A stretch of DNA of 41,239 nt from Vulcanimicrobiota bacterium (GTDB taxonomy: Bacteria > Vulcanimicrobiota > Vulcanimicrobiia > Vulcanimicrobiales > Vulcanimicrobiaceae). The notes beneath the pieces are model-generated. The model was given only the letters and a program-made list of their open reading frames with translations. It was not told where the DNA came from and made no database searches. Below are positions 4,501-17,541 of this stretch, piece after piece. The stretch lies in the NCBI GenBank assembly GCA_003136355.1, contig PLED01000052.1, positions 31,545 through 72,783 on the forward strand, in the 5' to 3' direction. The translations under genes and the position numbers were made by a program. Position 1 is the first letter of the stretch. Every line of letters begins with the position of its first letter.

Positions 4501-4752
4501 ACTTCGCTCGCGTTCATCATCGCCGTTACACCGTTGGTATTTGCGAGCGGCGCCGGGAGCGCGGCGCGCCACTCGCTCGGAACGGCGGTTTTCGGCGGCA
4601 TGGTAGTCTCGACGATCCTAAACTTAGCAATCACGCCGGTGCTTTACGTCATCGTGAAATCGTGGGCTCTGCGGCGTAAGGGTCTTCGCACGTTCCCGGC
4701 GGATTTGCCCGAGCTCGGACTGCCTGAAGGCGAACCCCCAGTTCCCGCCTAA
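1588..4752 (+). CDS. RND efflux pump, HAE1/AcrB-type inner-membrane transporter
   Basis: Proton-driven hydrophobe/amphiphile efflux transporter of the inner membrane, 1054 residues, normal for AcrB relatives. The N-terminus FFLRRPILAAVC begins TM1. The proton-relay aspartates are in TM4 (GLVVDDAIVVIEN, about D409/D410) and the matching lysine is in TM10 (SKSAILIVEFA). Two large periplasmic loops flank these segments. The start is GTG 10 bp after lipA, with AAAGAG upstream. What is missing is notable: no periplasmic adaptor (MFP/AcrA type) and no TolC-type channel is next to it. Downstream, 36 bp on, comes a secreted beta-rich protein (4792-6006) that might provide the outer-membrane part, but it does not look like TolC. 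Substrate cannot be inferred. Confidence 0.93.
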   Translation: MTPFFLRRPILAAVCSLVIVIAGLIVIPTLPIAQYPQIAPPVVTINANYTGANAQAVESAVTTPLEQAVNGVEGLRYVTSTSSDNGTSSITATFNLGTNLDTAASDVQNAVQSALGRLPNEVKQTGVTVSKNSGTFAMALALRSTNKQYNQLYLSNYAELNVVNSLKRVAGVSNVIIFGQRRYAMRVWINPQQLQARGLAISDVIGALQEQNVEVAAGSIGSAPESSNQPFTISVHAEGRLSTPEQFRNIIIRADPSGGFTRLGDVAQVEIGAEDYSSVISFDGNKNVVGMGVLQLPTANALQVSQGVRAQMDQLQKTFPPGVTWEMAFDSSEFVNESIREVIWTLLLSIFLVIAVIYLFLQDPRSTVIPAVTLPISLIGTFFVMKLFGFTINTITLFGLTLATGLVVDDAIVVIENIARFIQEKGTTGNEGAAAAMREVQGAVVASSLVLLAVFVPVAFFPGTTGQLYRQFAMTIAASITISLFASLTLTPVMSARMLRRDYHSHFPLFVIFNRGLESFRGWYRDTLPKMMRARYLVAALFIGALLATFFLFRTAPTAFIPDEDQGFFVVTIQAPEGSSLSHELSVAKRVEAILSKQPEIVHVFDVSGFSFTGSGPNRGILFARLAPWSQRRGAQHSLPALLQRIQMQFFGIPDAQVFAFNLPAIQGIGNFGGFQFELEDRANVGLPALMGTAFGYMGLGNRNPDLLNVFTTFRINSPQLQIHVDREKAKSIGVSLTDVFNTMQTDLGSFYVNDFDYLNRSYRVMVQAQEPYRNSMQSLQYLYVRSNGGGMVQLGGIASTKLGLSSPIINHYNLYRSIEINGSAAAGKGSGQAIAAMEKLAAQIDPPGVSYEWSGISREEIEGGVLSALIFGVGIVFVFLVLAAQYESFVDPFIVLLAVPVAILGALVFLDVRHIASDAYAQVGFVMLIGLASKSAILIVEFANQQLAHGADLITAASRAAQTRLRPILMTSLAFIIAVTPLVFASGAGSAARHSLGTAVFGGMVVSTILNLAITPVLYVIVKSWALRRKGLRTFPADLPELGLPEGEPPVPA

Positions 4753-4791
4753 ACCCGCCAATCCATACCGCTGGATCTGGAGATCGATTTG

Positions 4792-6006
4792 ATGCTTCGT
4801 TCTTTTTTTCGTGCAGGCGCACTCTGTGTTATTTCGGGCAGTCTTGCCGCCGCGCCGGCCCTGGCCGACGTGACCGGCCCCTACGGCACGGTTGTCCGCA
4901 GCGCGAATATCGCGATAAAAAACGCAATGAACGCTCAAGCGACGAAAAAGAACGCGCAGAACTTGCCGCCGGGCACCGTAGCGCAAGTCCCGCCTGTCGG
5001 TCAAGTTCCCGTCGGCGGCAAGACGGAAATCGGTCTGCCGACCGGCTTCACGTACACCATCGACTTCTCGTTCGCGCATCCCTACGGCAACGTCGGCAGC
5101 TTTGGAAACAAGTGGATGCAAGGCGGCACCGACCTCGTCGCCGGTTACGGCTTTAGTCCAAAGATGAGCGTCGTCGCAAACTATTACGAACTACAGCACT
5201 ATCCGGTCGGCTTCAACAGCGGACAGGTTCCGTTTTTTCTGCCCAGCGGTTTCCCGCCGACGCCGGGCGTAAATCCGAGTTGCGTCGATCTCAGCGGTAC
5301 AACGTCGAGCACATGCACCGGCATCAGCGCGCCGGTTGACGTCACGACCAAAGACAAGTTCTTTCTCGGCCTCTGGGAAAATCTGATCAACGTCGGGAAG
5401 TTTCGCGGCCGGTCGATTCCGATCGTCGTCACGCCGACCTACGTCTCGCGCTGGTCGCAAGTCAATGCATCGGGCAACAATGGCGACGTGGTTCCGTTTG
5501 TCGATTTCAACGGCGTGCCGCACTTCGGCATCAGCACGCGGACGACGCAAGTCTACTCGCTGGCAGTGACGATTCCGTTTCTAAAAACGCCGAGGATGTT
5601 CGGCACGTTCACAGTGGCGCCGTCGTGGCTCGTGCACACGGCCGGGCTGAACCAAGTCAACCACGCGCAGCTCTATCAGGTTCTCTATCTCGAATACAAT
5701 CCGACGCCGAGCACGAAAATTTTCCTGGAACCGCAAAGCTCGCGCGACTATCTGCCCGCCGATCCGTACGCGCAGCATGTGGCCGCTTACTTTGCCGGGA
5801 TTGCCCAGCGTCTGGGGCCAACGGCGTTCGTGCAGCTAGTGCTTAATAGCGGCGGGCCGACAAACTACTCGCCATACGGTATCAAGCAACTCAACTGCCT
5901 GCAGCTGCCGTGTTCGGCGAATACGGTTCCGACGGTCGGTGGCCTGAAGGCAACGCAGTTGCAGATCCAAATCGGGATCGGTTCGCCCAGCGTCATTCAG
6001 TTTTAA
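4792..6006 (+). CDS. Secreted protein, candidate outer-membrane beta-barrel
   Basis: 404 residues from ATG 4792 (GGAG lies 9 nt upstream; a TTG directly before it is possible). A clear signal peptide ends around AAAPALA|DV. After an Ala/Gln/Pro-rich linker, the mature part has many alternating hydrophobic/aromatic strands with Gly/Asn turns (for example YTIDFSFAHPYG, VVANYYELQHY) and a last strand LQLQIQIGIG... that ends in phenylalanine, as outer-membrane barrels often do. I do not recognise a named family. It follows the RND pump by 39 bp and precedes the GDSL lipoprotein by 17 bp, suggesting one envelope-related transcription unit. It could be a channel or an outer-membrane lipid-handling protein; the sequence does not decide. 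Confidence 0.7.
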   Translation: MLRSFFRAGALCVISGSLAAAPALADVTGPYGTVVRSANIAIKNAMNAQATKKNAQNLPPGTVAQVPPVGQVPVGGKTEIGLPTGFTYTIDFSFAHPYGNVGSFGNKWMQGGTDLVAGYGFSPKMSVVANYYELQHYPVGFNSGQVPFFLPSGFPPTPGVNPSCVDLSGTTSSTCTGISAPVDVTTKDKFFLGLWENLINVGKFRGRSIPIVVTPTYVSRWSQVNASGNNGDVVPFVDFNGVPHFGISTRTTQVYSLAVTIPFLKTPRMFGTFTVAPSWLVHTAGLNQVNHAQLYQVLYLEYNPTPSTKIFLEPQSSRDYLPADPYAQHVAAYFAGIAQRLGPTAFVQLVLNSGGPTNYSPYGIKQLNCLQLPCSANTVPTVGGLKATQLQIQIGIGSPSVIQF

Positions 6007-13426: not shown

Positions 13427-14428
13427 TTACGCCAAGACGGGAAGCGACATCCTCACAAACTCGCTCACCAGTGCCGGTGAAACATTCGTGCGGGCGAGCT
13501 TCTGCGCTTCGCCGATTTTCGTAAGTGCGCCAATGGCTGCGGCCGCCTCGATTTTCGGGAGCTTTTTGAGTTTCGGCTCATAGTCAACCGCAAGCGCGTC
13601 ACCGGCCGCGACGCCTTCGGAGCGTAACGCGATCCAATCGCGCATCAACGTCTTGACGATCTCCAGCCCTTCGTCGAGCGTTTCGCGCGACGCCCAGCTT
13701 TCTTCGGGCGTCTTGCCTTTGACGACTTCAAAAAACCAAGTCGCAACTTGGTCGCGCAGCTGCTCCTCGTCGTCGGAGAGCGCGGCGAGCGCGCGCGTTG
13801 CCGAACCCTGCGAGAGCGCCGCGCCGAGCTGCGCCTTCTTTTGATCGAAACCTTTCGCGCGCAGAATTTCGACGACTTCCGATTGCCGCAGCGATGGAAA
13901 GCGCACTTCAACCAACCGCGAGCGAATCGTCGCGAGCAACCGCGAAGGAGTCGGCGTCGTCAGCAGCAGCACAACGCGCGGCGGCGGCTCCTCAAAAAAT
14001 TTGAGCAGTGCATTAGCCGCGGCCGGCGACGCAAAGTCGATGTCGCCCAACACGAAGATGCGAAAGCCGCCTGAGTAGGACTGCAGCGAGAGCTGCCGCA
14101 CTAGGTCTCGCGACGTAATCGCGTCGGCTTCGTGAAAAGCCATCGGCTCGTCGGCCTCGCCAATCTTCAGCGCGCCGATGCTTTCCAGCAAGTCGGGATG
14201 GCGCGTCTCTTCTTTGCCGATGAGTTTGCATGCCGTGCACGTGCCGTCGTAACCGAGCACGTGTTCCTTAGGCGCTTCACACAGGAGCGACTGCGCTAGC
14301 CGCCGCGCAAACGTTTTCTTCCCGACGCCCGGCGGACCGGTAAAAAGATAAGCGTGCGCGATCGTCTCTTTGGTCAGTCGCCCGAAGAAACGCTTGGGCC
14401 CTTCCGCCCCGACGACGTCAAAGTGCAC
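13427..14428 (-). CDS. holB: DNA polymerase III delta' subunit (clamp-loader)
   Basis: Clamp-loader AAA+ subunit that helps open and load the beta sliding clamp. 333 residues. Walker A-like GPPGVGKKT lies near residues 31-39. A zinc-type set of cysteines follows (LLCEAP, then CTACK). The DnaX/HolB-family segment NALLKFFEEPPP is present, followed by TIRSRL at the arginine-finger position (an SRL rather than the SRC of many family members). The start is GTG 14428, inside the last codons of tmk (11-bp overlap), so expression is coupled to tmk. The tmk-holB pairing is also found in Firmicutes. DnaX itself would also match the N-terminal part, but the short C-terminal domain and the tmk neighbour favour delta'. 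Confidence 0.88.
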   Translation of the reverse strand: MHFDVVGAEGPKRFFGRLTKETIAHAYLFTGPPGVGKKTFARRLAQSLLCEAPKEHVLGYDGTCTACKLIGKEETRHPDLLESIGALKIGEADEPMAFHEADAITSRDLVRQLSLQSYSGGFRIFVLGDIDFASPAAANALLKFFEEPPPRVVLLLTTPTPSRLLATIRSRLVEVRFPSLRQSEVVEILRAKGFDQKKAQLGAALSQGSATRALAALSDDEEQLRDQVATWFFEVVKGKTPEESWASRETLDEGLEIVKTLMRDWIALRSEGVAAGDALAVDYEPKLKKLPKIEAAAAIGALTKIGEAQKLARTNVSPALVSEFVRMSLPVLA

Positions 14429-15023
14429 GGCGGATCGCTTCCATTGCGGCCTTGAATACGTGCGCTTCGTCGCGCTCGCCGTCGATCACGACGAATCGCG
14501 GATCGCCTTTGGCGAGCTCCAAAAATCCGGCGCGCGCGCGCCGGTGAAAGGCTTCTTCCATTTTTTCTAGCCGGTCGTCGACGTTGCCGCGGCGGTGCAG
14601 CCGTTCGCGCGACGTCTCGTACGACACGTCGATGAGCAGGGTCAGGTCGGGCATGAGCCCGCCTGTGGCGGCATCGCAGATGGCGCGCACCGCATCGAGC
14701 CGCTGCTCCCGTCCATAACCTTGATAAGCCAGCGAAGAATCCATATAGCGATCGCACAGAACGAGCGTTCCCGTTTGGAGAGCAGGCCGGATGACGTCGG
14801 TCACGAGCTGCGCGCGCGATGCGTTGACGAGCAGCGTTTCCGCCATCGCGCTCAACTCAAAGTGCGGTTCGATAAAAACGCGTCGGATGGCATCGCCAGC
14901 GGGCGTGCCGCCGGGCTCGCGCGTGACGAGCAGGTCGCGGCCTTCTTTGCGAAGTTCGGCTTCAACGGCGGAAAGCAGCGTCGTCTTGCCGCTTCCCTCG
15001 ATGCCCTCGAAAGAGATAAACAG
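14418..15023 (-). CDS. tmk: Thymidylate kinase, apparently CTG-initiated
   Basis: Phosphorylates dTMP to dTDP. The full family protein is 201 residues if read from CTG 15023: LFISFEGIEGSGKTT (P-loop GSGKTT), then TREPGGTPAG, then CDRYMDSSLAYQG (DRY and substrate-binding motifs) and a C-terminal RDEAHVF helix. The stop codon TAG of the upstream secreted-protein gene (15027-15029) is in the same frame just two codons earlier, so no ATG, GTG or TTG can start a complete kinase. The first ATG (14855) would remove 56 residues including the P-loop. CTG as a start, or ATC/ATT-type initiation next to it, is inferred; stop read-through into a fusion is the other option. holB overlaps its 3' end. Confidence 0.88.
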   Translation of the reverse strand: MFISFEGIEGSGKTTLLSAVEAELRKEGRDLLVTREPGGTPAGDAIRRVFIEPHFELSAMAETLLVNASRAQLVTDVIRPALQTGTLVLCDRYMDSSLAYQGYGREQRLDAVRAICDAATGGLMPDLTLLIDVSYETSRERLHRRGNVDDRLEKMEEAFHRRARAGFLELAKGDPRFVVIDGERDEAHVFKAAMEAIRRAL

Positions 15024-15026
15024 TTG

Positions 15027-15995
15027 CTACGCCGGTTTCGGCAAGAAGTGAAAGATCGAGATATTGAAACTGACGACGCCCTTGTTTTCGTTCGAGCCGA
15101 CGTTGACCGAAACCAACGAGTCGCTGTTATCCCAGCGGTAATCGTCCAAGAGCAGCGCCGACGCATCGGTGATGGCCGTGAACCCGCTTGGGATGGCATC
15201 ATAAACCGCCGCGCGCACCGGTTCTTCGAGCGCGGCCTTCGTGCCGGCCATCGAAACCGTTTGGCAGTTCAGCACCCATTTGGGTTGGAAATCCTTGAAG
15301 CCGAATCCGTTTGTGACGTTGGAGATGTCGCATTTGCCGAGCATCGACCCAAATGAGGCGTTCAGCTGATAACTATCATCACCTAAGATATCTTTCTTTT
15401 TCCCGGGCGCGCGTAGCGAGGCGAAATTATTCACCGCATCAGGAAGCGCCAAGCGCATCACATTCGAAACGCCGCTGGACAACTGCTGCAGCTGGATCTT
15501 GCTCGGAGGGTTCAGCACGTGGACAGCCTTGGCGAGATCCCGCCCTATTTGGACGTTAAACGAATCTTTGTAGACGTCTATCACGACCCACTGGGCATTG
15601 GCCGGATTGCGCCAAGTAAGGGTCGGATAGGAGTAGCTGACCGTGCGATGGAGCGAGAACGCGGAGAGCACCGGGCCCAACTGCGCCCTGATATAGGCTT
15701 CGGTTTTCGGCATCGTCCACGTCGTGTTCCAGCGGTCGTTGACGTACCAGTTCTCCGCGTATTTTCCGCGGGCGTATTGATCGTAAATCTTGCATGCCGT
15801 GCAGAGGGCCTTCGGCAGCGGCTTGTACTCGGCATAGTACGTGTCGGAGTCGTACTTGGCGCCGCGCATCGGCGCGAAATTTTGACCGGCCATGGGCAGG
15901 ATGGAGCGGACGAACGTACCGAGCGAGACTTTCGCGAGCTTTGGGGCGACCCCGAGCAACACCAAAATACTCGCAAGACAAACGAATCTTTGCAT
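15027..15995 (-). CDS. Secreted protein of unknown function
   Basis: 322 residues from ATG 15995, with an N-terminal hydrophobic stretch CLASILVLLGVAP that suggests export. The mature part has two short Cys motifs, CTACKIYDQYARGKY near residue 70 and single Cys residues near GKCDISN and LNCQTV, and ends with strand-like repeats around SLVSVNVGSNENKGVVSFNISIF. I do not recognise a family. It lies between the Ycf45-type ATPase (10 bp gap) and tmk (stop three bases before the tmk CTG). In Bacillus the corresponding place between decarboxylase and holB holds different small genes (yaaQ, yaaR), so this looks like a lineage-specific insertion in the block. Confidence 0.7.
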   Translation of the reverse strand: MQRFVCLASILVLLGVAPKLAKVSLGTFVRSILPMAGQNFAPMRGAKYDSDTYYAEYKPLPKALCTACKIYDQYARGKYAENWYVNDRWNTTWTMPKTEAYIRAQLGPVLSAFSLHRTVSYSYPTLTWRNPANAQWVVIDVYKDSFNVQIGRDLAKAVHVLNPPSKIQLQQLSSGVSNVMRLALPDAVNNFASLRAPGKKKDILGDDSYQLNASFGSMLGKCDISNVTNGFGFKDFQPKWVLNCQTVSMAGTKAALEEPVRAAVYDAIPSGFTAITDASALLLDDYRWDNSDSLVSVNVGSNENKGVVSFNISIFHFLPKPA

Positions 15996-16005
15996 GCTGG
16001 GTACT

Positions 16006-17541
16006 TTAGGCTTTAAATATCCGCACCCTTCGATTGGGTTCAAGGCCCGTGCTTCGCGACTGCAGGCGGTACTTCTCGGCCACTTGGTGCTGCATCCGGC
16101 GCAAATACGACGTCTGAGGCGAAAGCTCGATGGCCTGGCTGTCCAGAAGCACCTGGTAGACCGCTTCCTCGGCTTCGCGCAAGGCAATCTCTTCGTTGTC
16201 GAGCGAGGGCAGATTGAAAACATCTTTGAGGCAGCTTTGAATCTGCGTCGTCGTGTTGGTCTTAATCGCGTAGATCGGAATATTTTCCGACGCGATCTGC
16301 TTGAGCCGCGGCTGTTCTTTGCGCTCTAAGGCCTTCAGCGTTAGGACGACGTCGGCGCCATCCCACTTGCGCGCGATCGAAGCGTTGACGCGCAGGTTGT
16401 GGACGGCCCGCTCGATCTTGTTGCGCGAGACGCCGTAGGGGAAAATCATGAGCGGCTTTTCGCGGTCTTCTTCCGGCACGTCGTAGCTGGGCGCCATCGC
16501 GATGTGCGGCATGGATTCCGTGTCGGCTTCTTGGACGATGGAAACGCCCGCGGATGTACGCTGGCGAATCTCCGGCTGCGGCTGATAGCCCCGCAGCAGC
16601 GCGTCGACGACCTCGCCGACGTTCTTGTGAATCGCGAGGCGATCGCGGTCGTGAATCTCCACCACCACATCGAAGGTCGGCGGCGCCTTACGCTCGAGCA
16701 CCGTCTTGCGGGTCCCGCGCCGGCGCGCTTCCTCGTCTGAAAGCGTGACCGCGCCGATGCCGCCCATCAGGTCGGCCAGCGTCGGGTTCATAAGGAGATT
16801 TTCCAGGGTCTGACCGTGCGCGGTTCCGATCAGCACCACGCCGCGCTCGGCGATGGTGCGCGCGGCCTCGGCCTCGGCTGCGGTGCCAATTTCGTCAATG
16901 ACGATGACCTGGGGCATGTGGTTTTCCACGGCTTCGATCATGACGCCGTGCTGCAGCGCAGGATCGGTCACTTGCATGCGGCGCGCGGTGCCGATTCCGG
17001 GATGCGGAATATCGCTGTCGCCCGCGATTTCATTGGACGTATCGACGATGACCACGCGTTTGCGATCTTCCGAGAGCATGCGCGCGCATTCGCGCAGCAT
17101 GGTTGTTTTGCCGACTCCGGGGCGCCCCAGTAAACAGATCGACTTGCCGCTGCGCAAAATATCGAGAATGATATCGATCGTCCCGTAGACCGCGCGACCG
17201 ACGCGGCACGTCAGCCCGACGATTTTTCCCGTCCGGTTGCGGATCGCGCTAATGCGGTGCAGCGTTTGCTCGATGCCCGCGCGATTGTCGGCTCCGAATG
17301 CGGAGAGGCGCGAACTGACCTGCGCGATGTCTTCGGCCGAGACCGGCGTTTCCGAAAGATAGACGAAGTCGTTTTCGAAGCGCGCTTCGGGCGGACGCCC
17401 GAGGTCGAGTACAACCTCGATCATATCCTCGAGGTTGGGCAGGCGAACGAGCGATTGCCGTATGGGGAGTGGGAAAATGTCGAGGAGTTGCGTCAGCTCC
17501 CAGTTAGGAGCTATGGACTCGGCTTTAATGGCCAACACCAT
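16006..17541 (-). CDS. SpoIIIAA-like AAA ATPase with R3H domain (Ycf45 family)
   Basis: 511 residues. An N-terminal region is followed by a SpoIIIAA/GspE-like ATPase: GRPGVGKTT with K145, IVDTSNEIAGD, Walker B VIVIDEIG and GTAHGQTLENL. A middle segment IFPYGVSRNKIERAV with a following Rossmann-like part, and a C-terminal R3H motif RRMQHQVAEKYRLQS...EPNRRVRIF, complete the architecture of cyanobacterial and plastid Ycf45 proteins, presumed single-stranded nucleic-acid binders. The start is ATG 17541; GAGG lies so close that GTG or TTG at the second or third codon may be used. It lies between the decarboxylase and tmk. Function in this organism is unknown; sporulation is not implied. Confidence 0.88.
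   Translation of the reverse strand: MVLAIKAESIAPNWELTQLLDIFPLPIRQSLVRLPNLEDMIEVVLDLGRPPEARFENDFVYLSETPVSAEDIAQVSSRLSAFGADNRAGIEQTLHRISAIRNRTGKIVGLTCRVGRAVYGTIDIILDILRSGKSICLLGRPGVGKTTMLRECARMLSEDRKRVVIVDTSNEIAGDSDIPHPGIGTARRMQVTDPALQHGVMIEAVENHMPQVIVIDEIGTAAEAEAARTIAERGVVLIGTAHGQTLENLLMNPTLADLMGGIGAVTLSDEEARRRGTRKTVLERKAPPTFDVVVEIHDRDRLAIHKNVGEVVDALLRGYQPQPEIRQRTSAGVSIVQEADTESMPHIAMAPSYDVPEEDREKPLMIFPYGVSRNKIERAVHNLRVNASIARKWDGADVVLTLKALERKEQPRLKQIASENIPIYAIKTNTTTQIQSCLKDVFNLPSLDNEEIALREAEEAVYQVLLDSQAIELSPQTSYLRRMQHQVAEKYRLQSRSTGLEPNRRVRIFKA

Follow-up and report, generated by a model that had tools for sequence, protein, structure and literature searches.

The tmk gene, which is essential for building DNA, probably starts at a CTG codon in the window, the whole 41,239-nt stretch of DNA analysed here. 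On our preferred reading, to which we assign a probability of roughly 0.78, tmk would be read by initiator fMet-tRNA from the CTG at 15023-15021, with initiation coupled to termination of the upstream gene, and this start would have arisen from a GTG when an orphan gene entered in front of tmk. Initiation at CTG is the best-supported reading of the tmk start region, which, on comparison with related genomes, is real, conserved and unusual in placing a CTG at the head of an essential gene. Both the use of this CTG and the role of coupling in driving it are inferred (Table 1).

Table 1 Features around the tmk start in the window, and tmk loci of related genomes with an apparent GTA start.
Feature	Position	Strand	Remarks
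holB, DNA polymerase III delta' subunit	13427..14428	-	PF13177 124.4 bits; ORF listing
tmk, dTMP kinase	14418..15023	-	201 codons + stop, read from CTG; TIGR00041, PF02223
CTG, proposed tmk start codon	15021..15023	-	CTG in 4/4 clade genomes, GTG in 3 other genus genomes
Single spacer codon, stop to CTG	15024..15026	-	not conserved: CAA, CCA, CCG, CCG
TAG stop of upstream gene, in tmk frame	15027..15029	-	TAG in 4/4
Orphan gene, probably exported 322-aa protein	15027..15995	-	inserted between R3H gene and tmk; export signal judged by eye
R3H / SpoIIIAA-like ATPase gene, ancestrally next upstream of tmk	16006..17541	-	PF01424, PF19568, PF25516
Apparent GTA-start tmk loci	L166, L174, L179, L183, L184, L188, L196, L201, L203, L205, L208		10 genomes, 9 genera, outside window clade

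Read 5′ to 3′ on the minus strand, the TAG (15029-15027) is followed by CAA (15026-15024) and CTG (15023-15021); the upstream gene closes with CCG AAA CCG GCG TAG, and the codons after the CTG are TTT ATC TCT TTC GAG GGC ATC GAG GGA AGC GGC AAG ACG ACG. The first-pass annotation had described tmk as apparently starting at CTG two codons after an in-frame TAG, which the sequence bears out (TAG-CAA-CTG-TTT), and its statement that no ATG, GTG or TTG lies between this TAG and the P-loop was confirmed from the ORFs of the window, the first such codon in the tmk frame past the TAG being a TTG at 14855-14853, far beyond the P-loop. The gene product scored 163 bits against the TIGR00041 profile (cut-off 83.25) and 150.6 bits against PF02223 (cut-off 27), and it is the sole dTMP kinase match in the genome, a 2.52-Mb Candidatus Eremiobacterota draft. 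It aligned to the Tmk of PDB 3hjn over residues 1-199, corresponding to a complete fold with the P-loop, and residue 1 counted from the CTG pairs with residue 1 of that structure. At its other end tmk is overlapped by holB for 11 nt, provided that the listed GTG start of holB is correct; holB also matched TIGR00678 with 152.7 bits, under the cut-off of 180.6 for that profile. Inside tmk, at 14527-14544, we noticed a terminator-like GC hairpin followed by a T-rich stretch, probably a chance occurrence, such matches being fewer than in shuffled sequences.

The genus comprises seven genomes in the collection, four of them (window included) with CTG and three with GTG; PLWS01000005.1, JAAXCW010000001.1 and JAAXCX010000005.1 were taken as three of the four CTG genomes and counted once. 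TAG-NNN-CTG-TTT was found in all four, each with a gap of 3 nt between stop and start, and the remaining three carry GTG-TTC at the homologous codon. The GTG that these three sisters have at this position identifies the codon as the start. An ATG, GTG or TTG in relatives had been regarded in the first-pass annotation as a sign of sequence error; such a codon does stand there, as GTG, in the three next-closest genomes of the genus, whereas the nearest three relatives of the window have CTG as well, so the sequence is not in error here.

The four CTG genomes differ pairwise at ~40% of fourfold sites, with 38 of the 101 fourfold sites of tmk invariant across all four, and not one of the window's eight CTG codons inside tmk is kept as CTG throughout; neither the start CTG nor the TAG varies. 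Measured against this background, the conservation of the CTG exceeds chance. Values of dN between 0.033 and 0.045 and of dS between 0.655 and 1.178 were obtained for tmk among these genomes, in which the gene is under strong purifying selection. The tmk tree (88 rows, 100 columns; deep branches poorly resolved) places the four in one clade with support of 99/97, and their CTG goes back to one change and counts as a single event. That the CTG is a product of sequencing or assembly, or belongs to a dead gene, might be supposed for a draft of 111 contigs; yet the same codon stands in four divergent genomes, dN is far below dS and the genome holds no second tmk copy that could have freed this one, making this explanation practically negligible.

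The gene directly upstream of tmk in the window encodes a protein for which no match was found in NCBIfam, Pfam or PDB. It is present in four of the seven genus genomes, precisely those with CTG, and in the three GTG genomes, which lack it, the R3H/SpoIIIAA-like gene directly precedes tmk, with 14, 14 and 20 nt to the Phe codon of tmk. Because the orphan gene accompanies tmk in the CTG genomes alone, its arrival at this site and the change of start fall on one branch; this distribution indicates a single replacement of GTG by CTG, in the lineage that acquired the orphan gene. By eye, GCCGCT precedes the GTG in G001, with AG between, and the CTG in G003, where the two overlap, and a small deletion may have made the CTG. 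Relatives of the orphan gene were detected in 15 of the 92 other family genomes, at scattered loci (window 15027-15995, L280-L283); 13 of these 15 genomes have a tmk match, with the orphan relative and tmk on different contigs.

We propose that the ancestral tmk start was a GTG right behind the R3H gene, that the start became CTG as the orphan gene entered between the two, and that the CTG was then retained through the split of four species. Since the CTG lies 3 nt past the UAG and is preceded by no Shine-Dalgarno motif, ribosomes terminating at the UAG would reinitiate at the CTG, and this route would probably provide most tmk initiation. A Shine-Dalgarno core at a spacing of 4-10 before the CTG was present in none of the four clade genomes; such cores are common in reinitiation pairs but not required. 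In native E. coli gene pairs, according to the part of PMC10666635 drawn on here, reinitiation survives a distance of 2 nt, though 5 to 70% of it is lost, and is nearly abolished at about 38 nt. The apparent ATA start of infC in the same family (see below) counts in favour of a CTG start; against it count the missing Shine-Dalgarno compensation, the single change behind all four genomes, and the failure of the clade to move to ATG, GTG or TTG, any of which a single step would have reached. According to the accessible text of PMC9845219, CUG performs very poorly as a start both in E. coli and in tobacco chloroplasts, giving no reporter activity, and in that of PMC11497404 neither wild-type nor M1 initiator tRNA initiates efficiently on CUG.

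The anti-Shine-Dalgarno sequence of sister G002 and the initiator anticodon stems of sisters G002-G004 are normal, and a search for an altered initiator tRNA matched the usual anticodon stem in 15 of 17 genomes (in G001 with two masked bases), the two without a match being G035 and G000, whose initiator tRNA is partly masked with N. For IF3, inspection of 24 sequences by eye revealed nothing specific to the clade; one of them comprised the C-terminal part only and another was partly masked. RNA structure at the junction was unremarkable in two windows (z of -1.8 and -0.9), and a promoter scan found no promoter. In a 220-kb stretch of G003 with 93 conserved genes, from which tmk itself was dropped in the automatic set, prfB alone was judged, by eye among the 40 highest-scoring genes, to have coding signal upstream of the first canonical codon. 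This prfB (L117, about 4676-5725; G003:C1) lacks a start codon in the main frame, as a programmed frameshift would lead one to expect.

Other readings of the junction have to be weighed against initiation at the CTG. A further near-cognate codon could serve as the start, for instance the ATC two codons past the CTG, a position held by ATC or ATT in all four genomes; ATT initiates weakly, reaching in E. coli some 0.3% of the ATG level in the portion of PMC10666635 consulted. This Ile is, however, a conserved residue of the protein, so its codon is uninformative, a start there would cost part of the first strand, and both the GTG of the sisters and the ATG, GTG or TTG of distant relatives sit at the position of the CTG, which leaves such a start unlikely. 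Read-through of the UAG, which the first-pass annotation had raised as a fusion of a secreted protein with the kinase, would draw on a stop that lies in the tmk frame one codon away and is kept as TAG, with C as the next base, in all four genomes. The codon behind it varies, though, no tRNA with a stop anticodon was recognised among 41 distinct ARAGORN predictions for G000 (one anticodon unreadable), the export signal of the fusion would send the kinase away from its substrate, and relatives that lack the upstream gene have GTG as the tmk start at this very codon; we found the fusion unsupported and hold it to be distinctly improbable.

Less probable again is a ribosomal frameshift by which ribosomes reading another frame would enter tmk beyond the stop. 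Such shifts are possible in principle, and prfB of a relative, lacking a main-frame start, is a case in point; at tmk the in-frame stop one codon before the CTG would confine the shift to those few bases, no slippery site was visible by eye, and the relatives simply begin with GTG here, so that we consider a frameshift highly improbable. Initiation at the CTG, helped by the terminating ribosome, stays our reading of the window clade, and it can be set beside the starts used elsewhere in the family.

Near the start of the match, 75 of 80 related tmk loci in the public genome collection have ATG (47), GTG (19) or TTG (9), and in two the sole canonical codons lie 17 and 21 codons upstream. The three loci without any ATG, GTG or TTG from the preceding stop to the P-loop are the other members of the window clade and no others. 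Within the family, 88 of 91 tmk rows were read (G075:C109, G079:C20 and G037:C207 were left out), giving as best reading ATG in 39, GTG in 32, TTG in 2, CTG in 4 and GTA in 11. Many of the ATG loci (e.g., L095, L097, L161, L163 and L167) carry a GTCGAA-like hexamer ~12-15 nt before the ATG, which is perhaps a promoter or leader element. infC apparently starts at ATA in 22 of 23 readable family loci (L284-L308), and in the last one codon further up; by eye, a GGAG-like motif usually stands ahead of the ATA. With infC at ATA, the family seems to use near-cognate starts.

The 11 tmk loci with an apparent GTA start are more surprising than the CTG clade; to our knowledge, the bacterial code does not list GUA among its start codons. 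In these loci the upstream gene ends in Gly-x-x-Ala-stop, and its stop is overlapped by the in-frame GTA as GTAA or GTAG. GGAG or GGGG is located exactly 7 nt before the GTA in all 11, compared with any Shine-Dalgarno core at a spacing of 4-10 in 7 of 73 canonical-start loci (Fisher p 1.7e-9, ignoring kinship and with the motif first spotted in the same sequences). An automatic reading of the upstream gene in ten loci gave GGA (7) or GGG (3) as the Gly codon, although GGC and GGT together account for 64% of Gly codons there, and the final Ala codon is GCG in all ten, against 60% of Ala codons; the codons between them vary in the third base. From the GTA to the conserved Phe there are 2 to 11 codons, always in frame, and 9 of the 11 loci have no ATG, GTG or TTG from the GTA onward, the exceptions being L201 with a GTG and L205 with a TTG further down; L174 has a TTG 13 codons upstream of the GTA.

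Locus L102 shows the same geometry with GTGA, its GTG overlapping TGA, from which it follows that GTGA and GTAA are a single step apart. It counts against a GTA start that GTGA, better and close by, occurs in none of the eleven loci. A frameshift out of the upstream gene also has to be reckoned with at the GTA loci, where the tmk frame is open upstream of the GTA for 8 to 129 codons, some of these counts ending at the edge of the stretch read. Outside the family, no GTA-type junction was detected in the 18 other genomes of the class, which is a weak negative: the pattern needs GCGTAR and the exact peptide, and it misses the family members G002, G004, G033, G097 and G098. Genome G074 has two tmk copies, both of the GTA type (L179 on G074:C2 and L183 on G074:C56) and one near a contig end, reflecting either duplication or contamination. 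Weaker starts tend to have stronger Shine-Dalgarno compensation (Belinky 2017, PMC5622118, as far as its text was available), a trend that would fit the GTA loci and not the CTG clade.

Taken together, tmk may be especially prone, in this Eremiobacterota family, to losing its start codon where a stop and a start meet, with CUG in the window clade and a natural GUA in ten genomes of nine other genera, as GUAA or GUAG, held by GGAG or GGGG 7 nt before it. Together with infC at AUA, this could make tmk sensitive to IF3 and link the supply of dTTP to the fidelity of translation or else to the upstream gene, a joint reading for and against which we see the odds as even. If CTG and GTA truly start tmk, a nearby termination site would relax the rules for start codons in nature, and the family would offer a natural series (GTG, CTG, GTGA, GTAA/GTAG) for how reinitiation and Shine-Dalgarno pairing offset a poor start codon. 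Gene finders limited to ATG, GTG and TTG would miss or truncate such a tmk, and an essential gene could be called absent.

In the published literature, searched for CTG/CUG and GUA starts, coupling, infC and Eremiobacterota, the papers listed included none with a title or first abstract lines on a CTG-started tmk or on the start codons of this phylum. A close parallel, in that an essential gene retains a near-cognate start, is infC of E. coli, which reportedly starts at AUU. There, a Shine-Dalgarno-like motif and self-control through IF3 are present, whereas tmk in the CTG clade lacks the motif and is not known to be under feedback. For GUA, recJ of E. coli is said to have carried a mutation to this initiation codon that was suppressed through IF3; in recJ the GUA is a mutation, while at tmk we propose it as the wild-type codon of nine genera that do not belong to the window clade. 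Annotated bacterial CTG starts, in which a CTG likewise opens a protein gene, are rare (20 ORFs, or 0.024%, in 69 genomes, as given in the available part of PMC9845219); the CTG of the window differs in being kept over four species, at an essential single-copy gene and with its GTG ancestor visible. Termination-reinitiation pairs such as ATGA and TGATG have stop and start within a few bases of each other, as at TAG-CTG, and the GTAA/GTAG loci share the 4-nt overlap geometry of ATGA. The pairs described in the parts of PMC6728339 and PMC10666635 considered here use canonical starts, unlike the proposed CTG and GTA starts of tmk.
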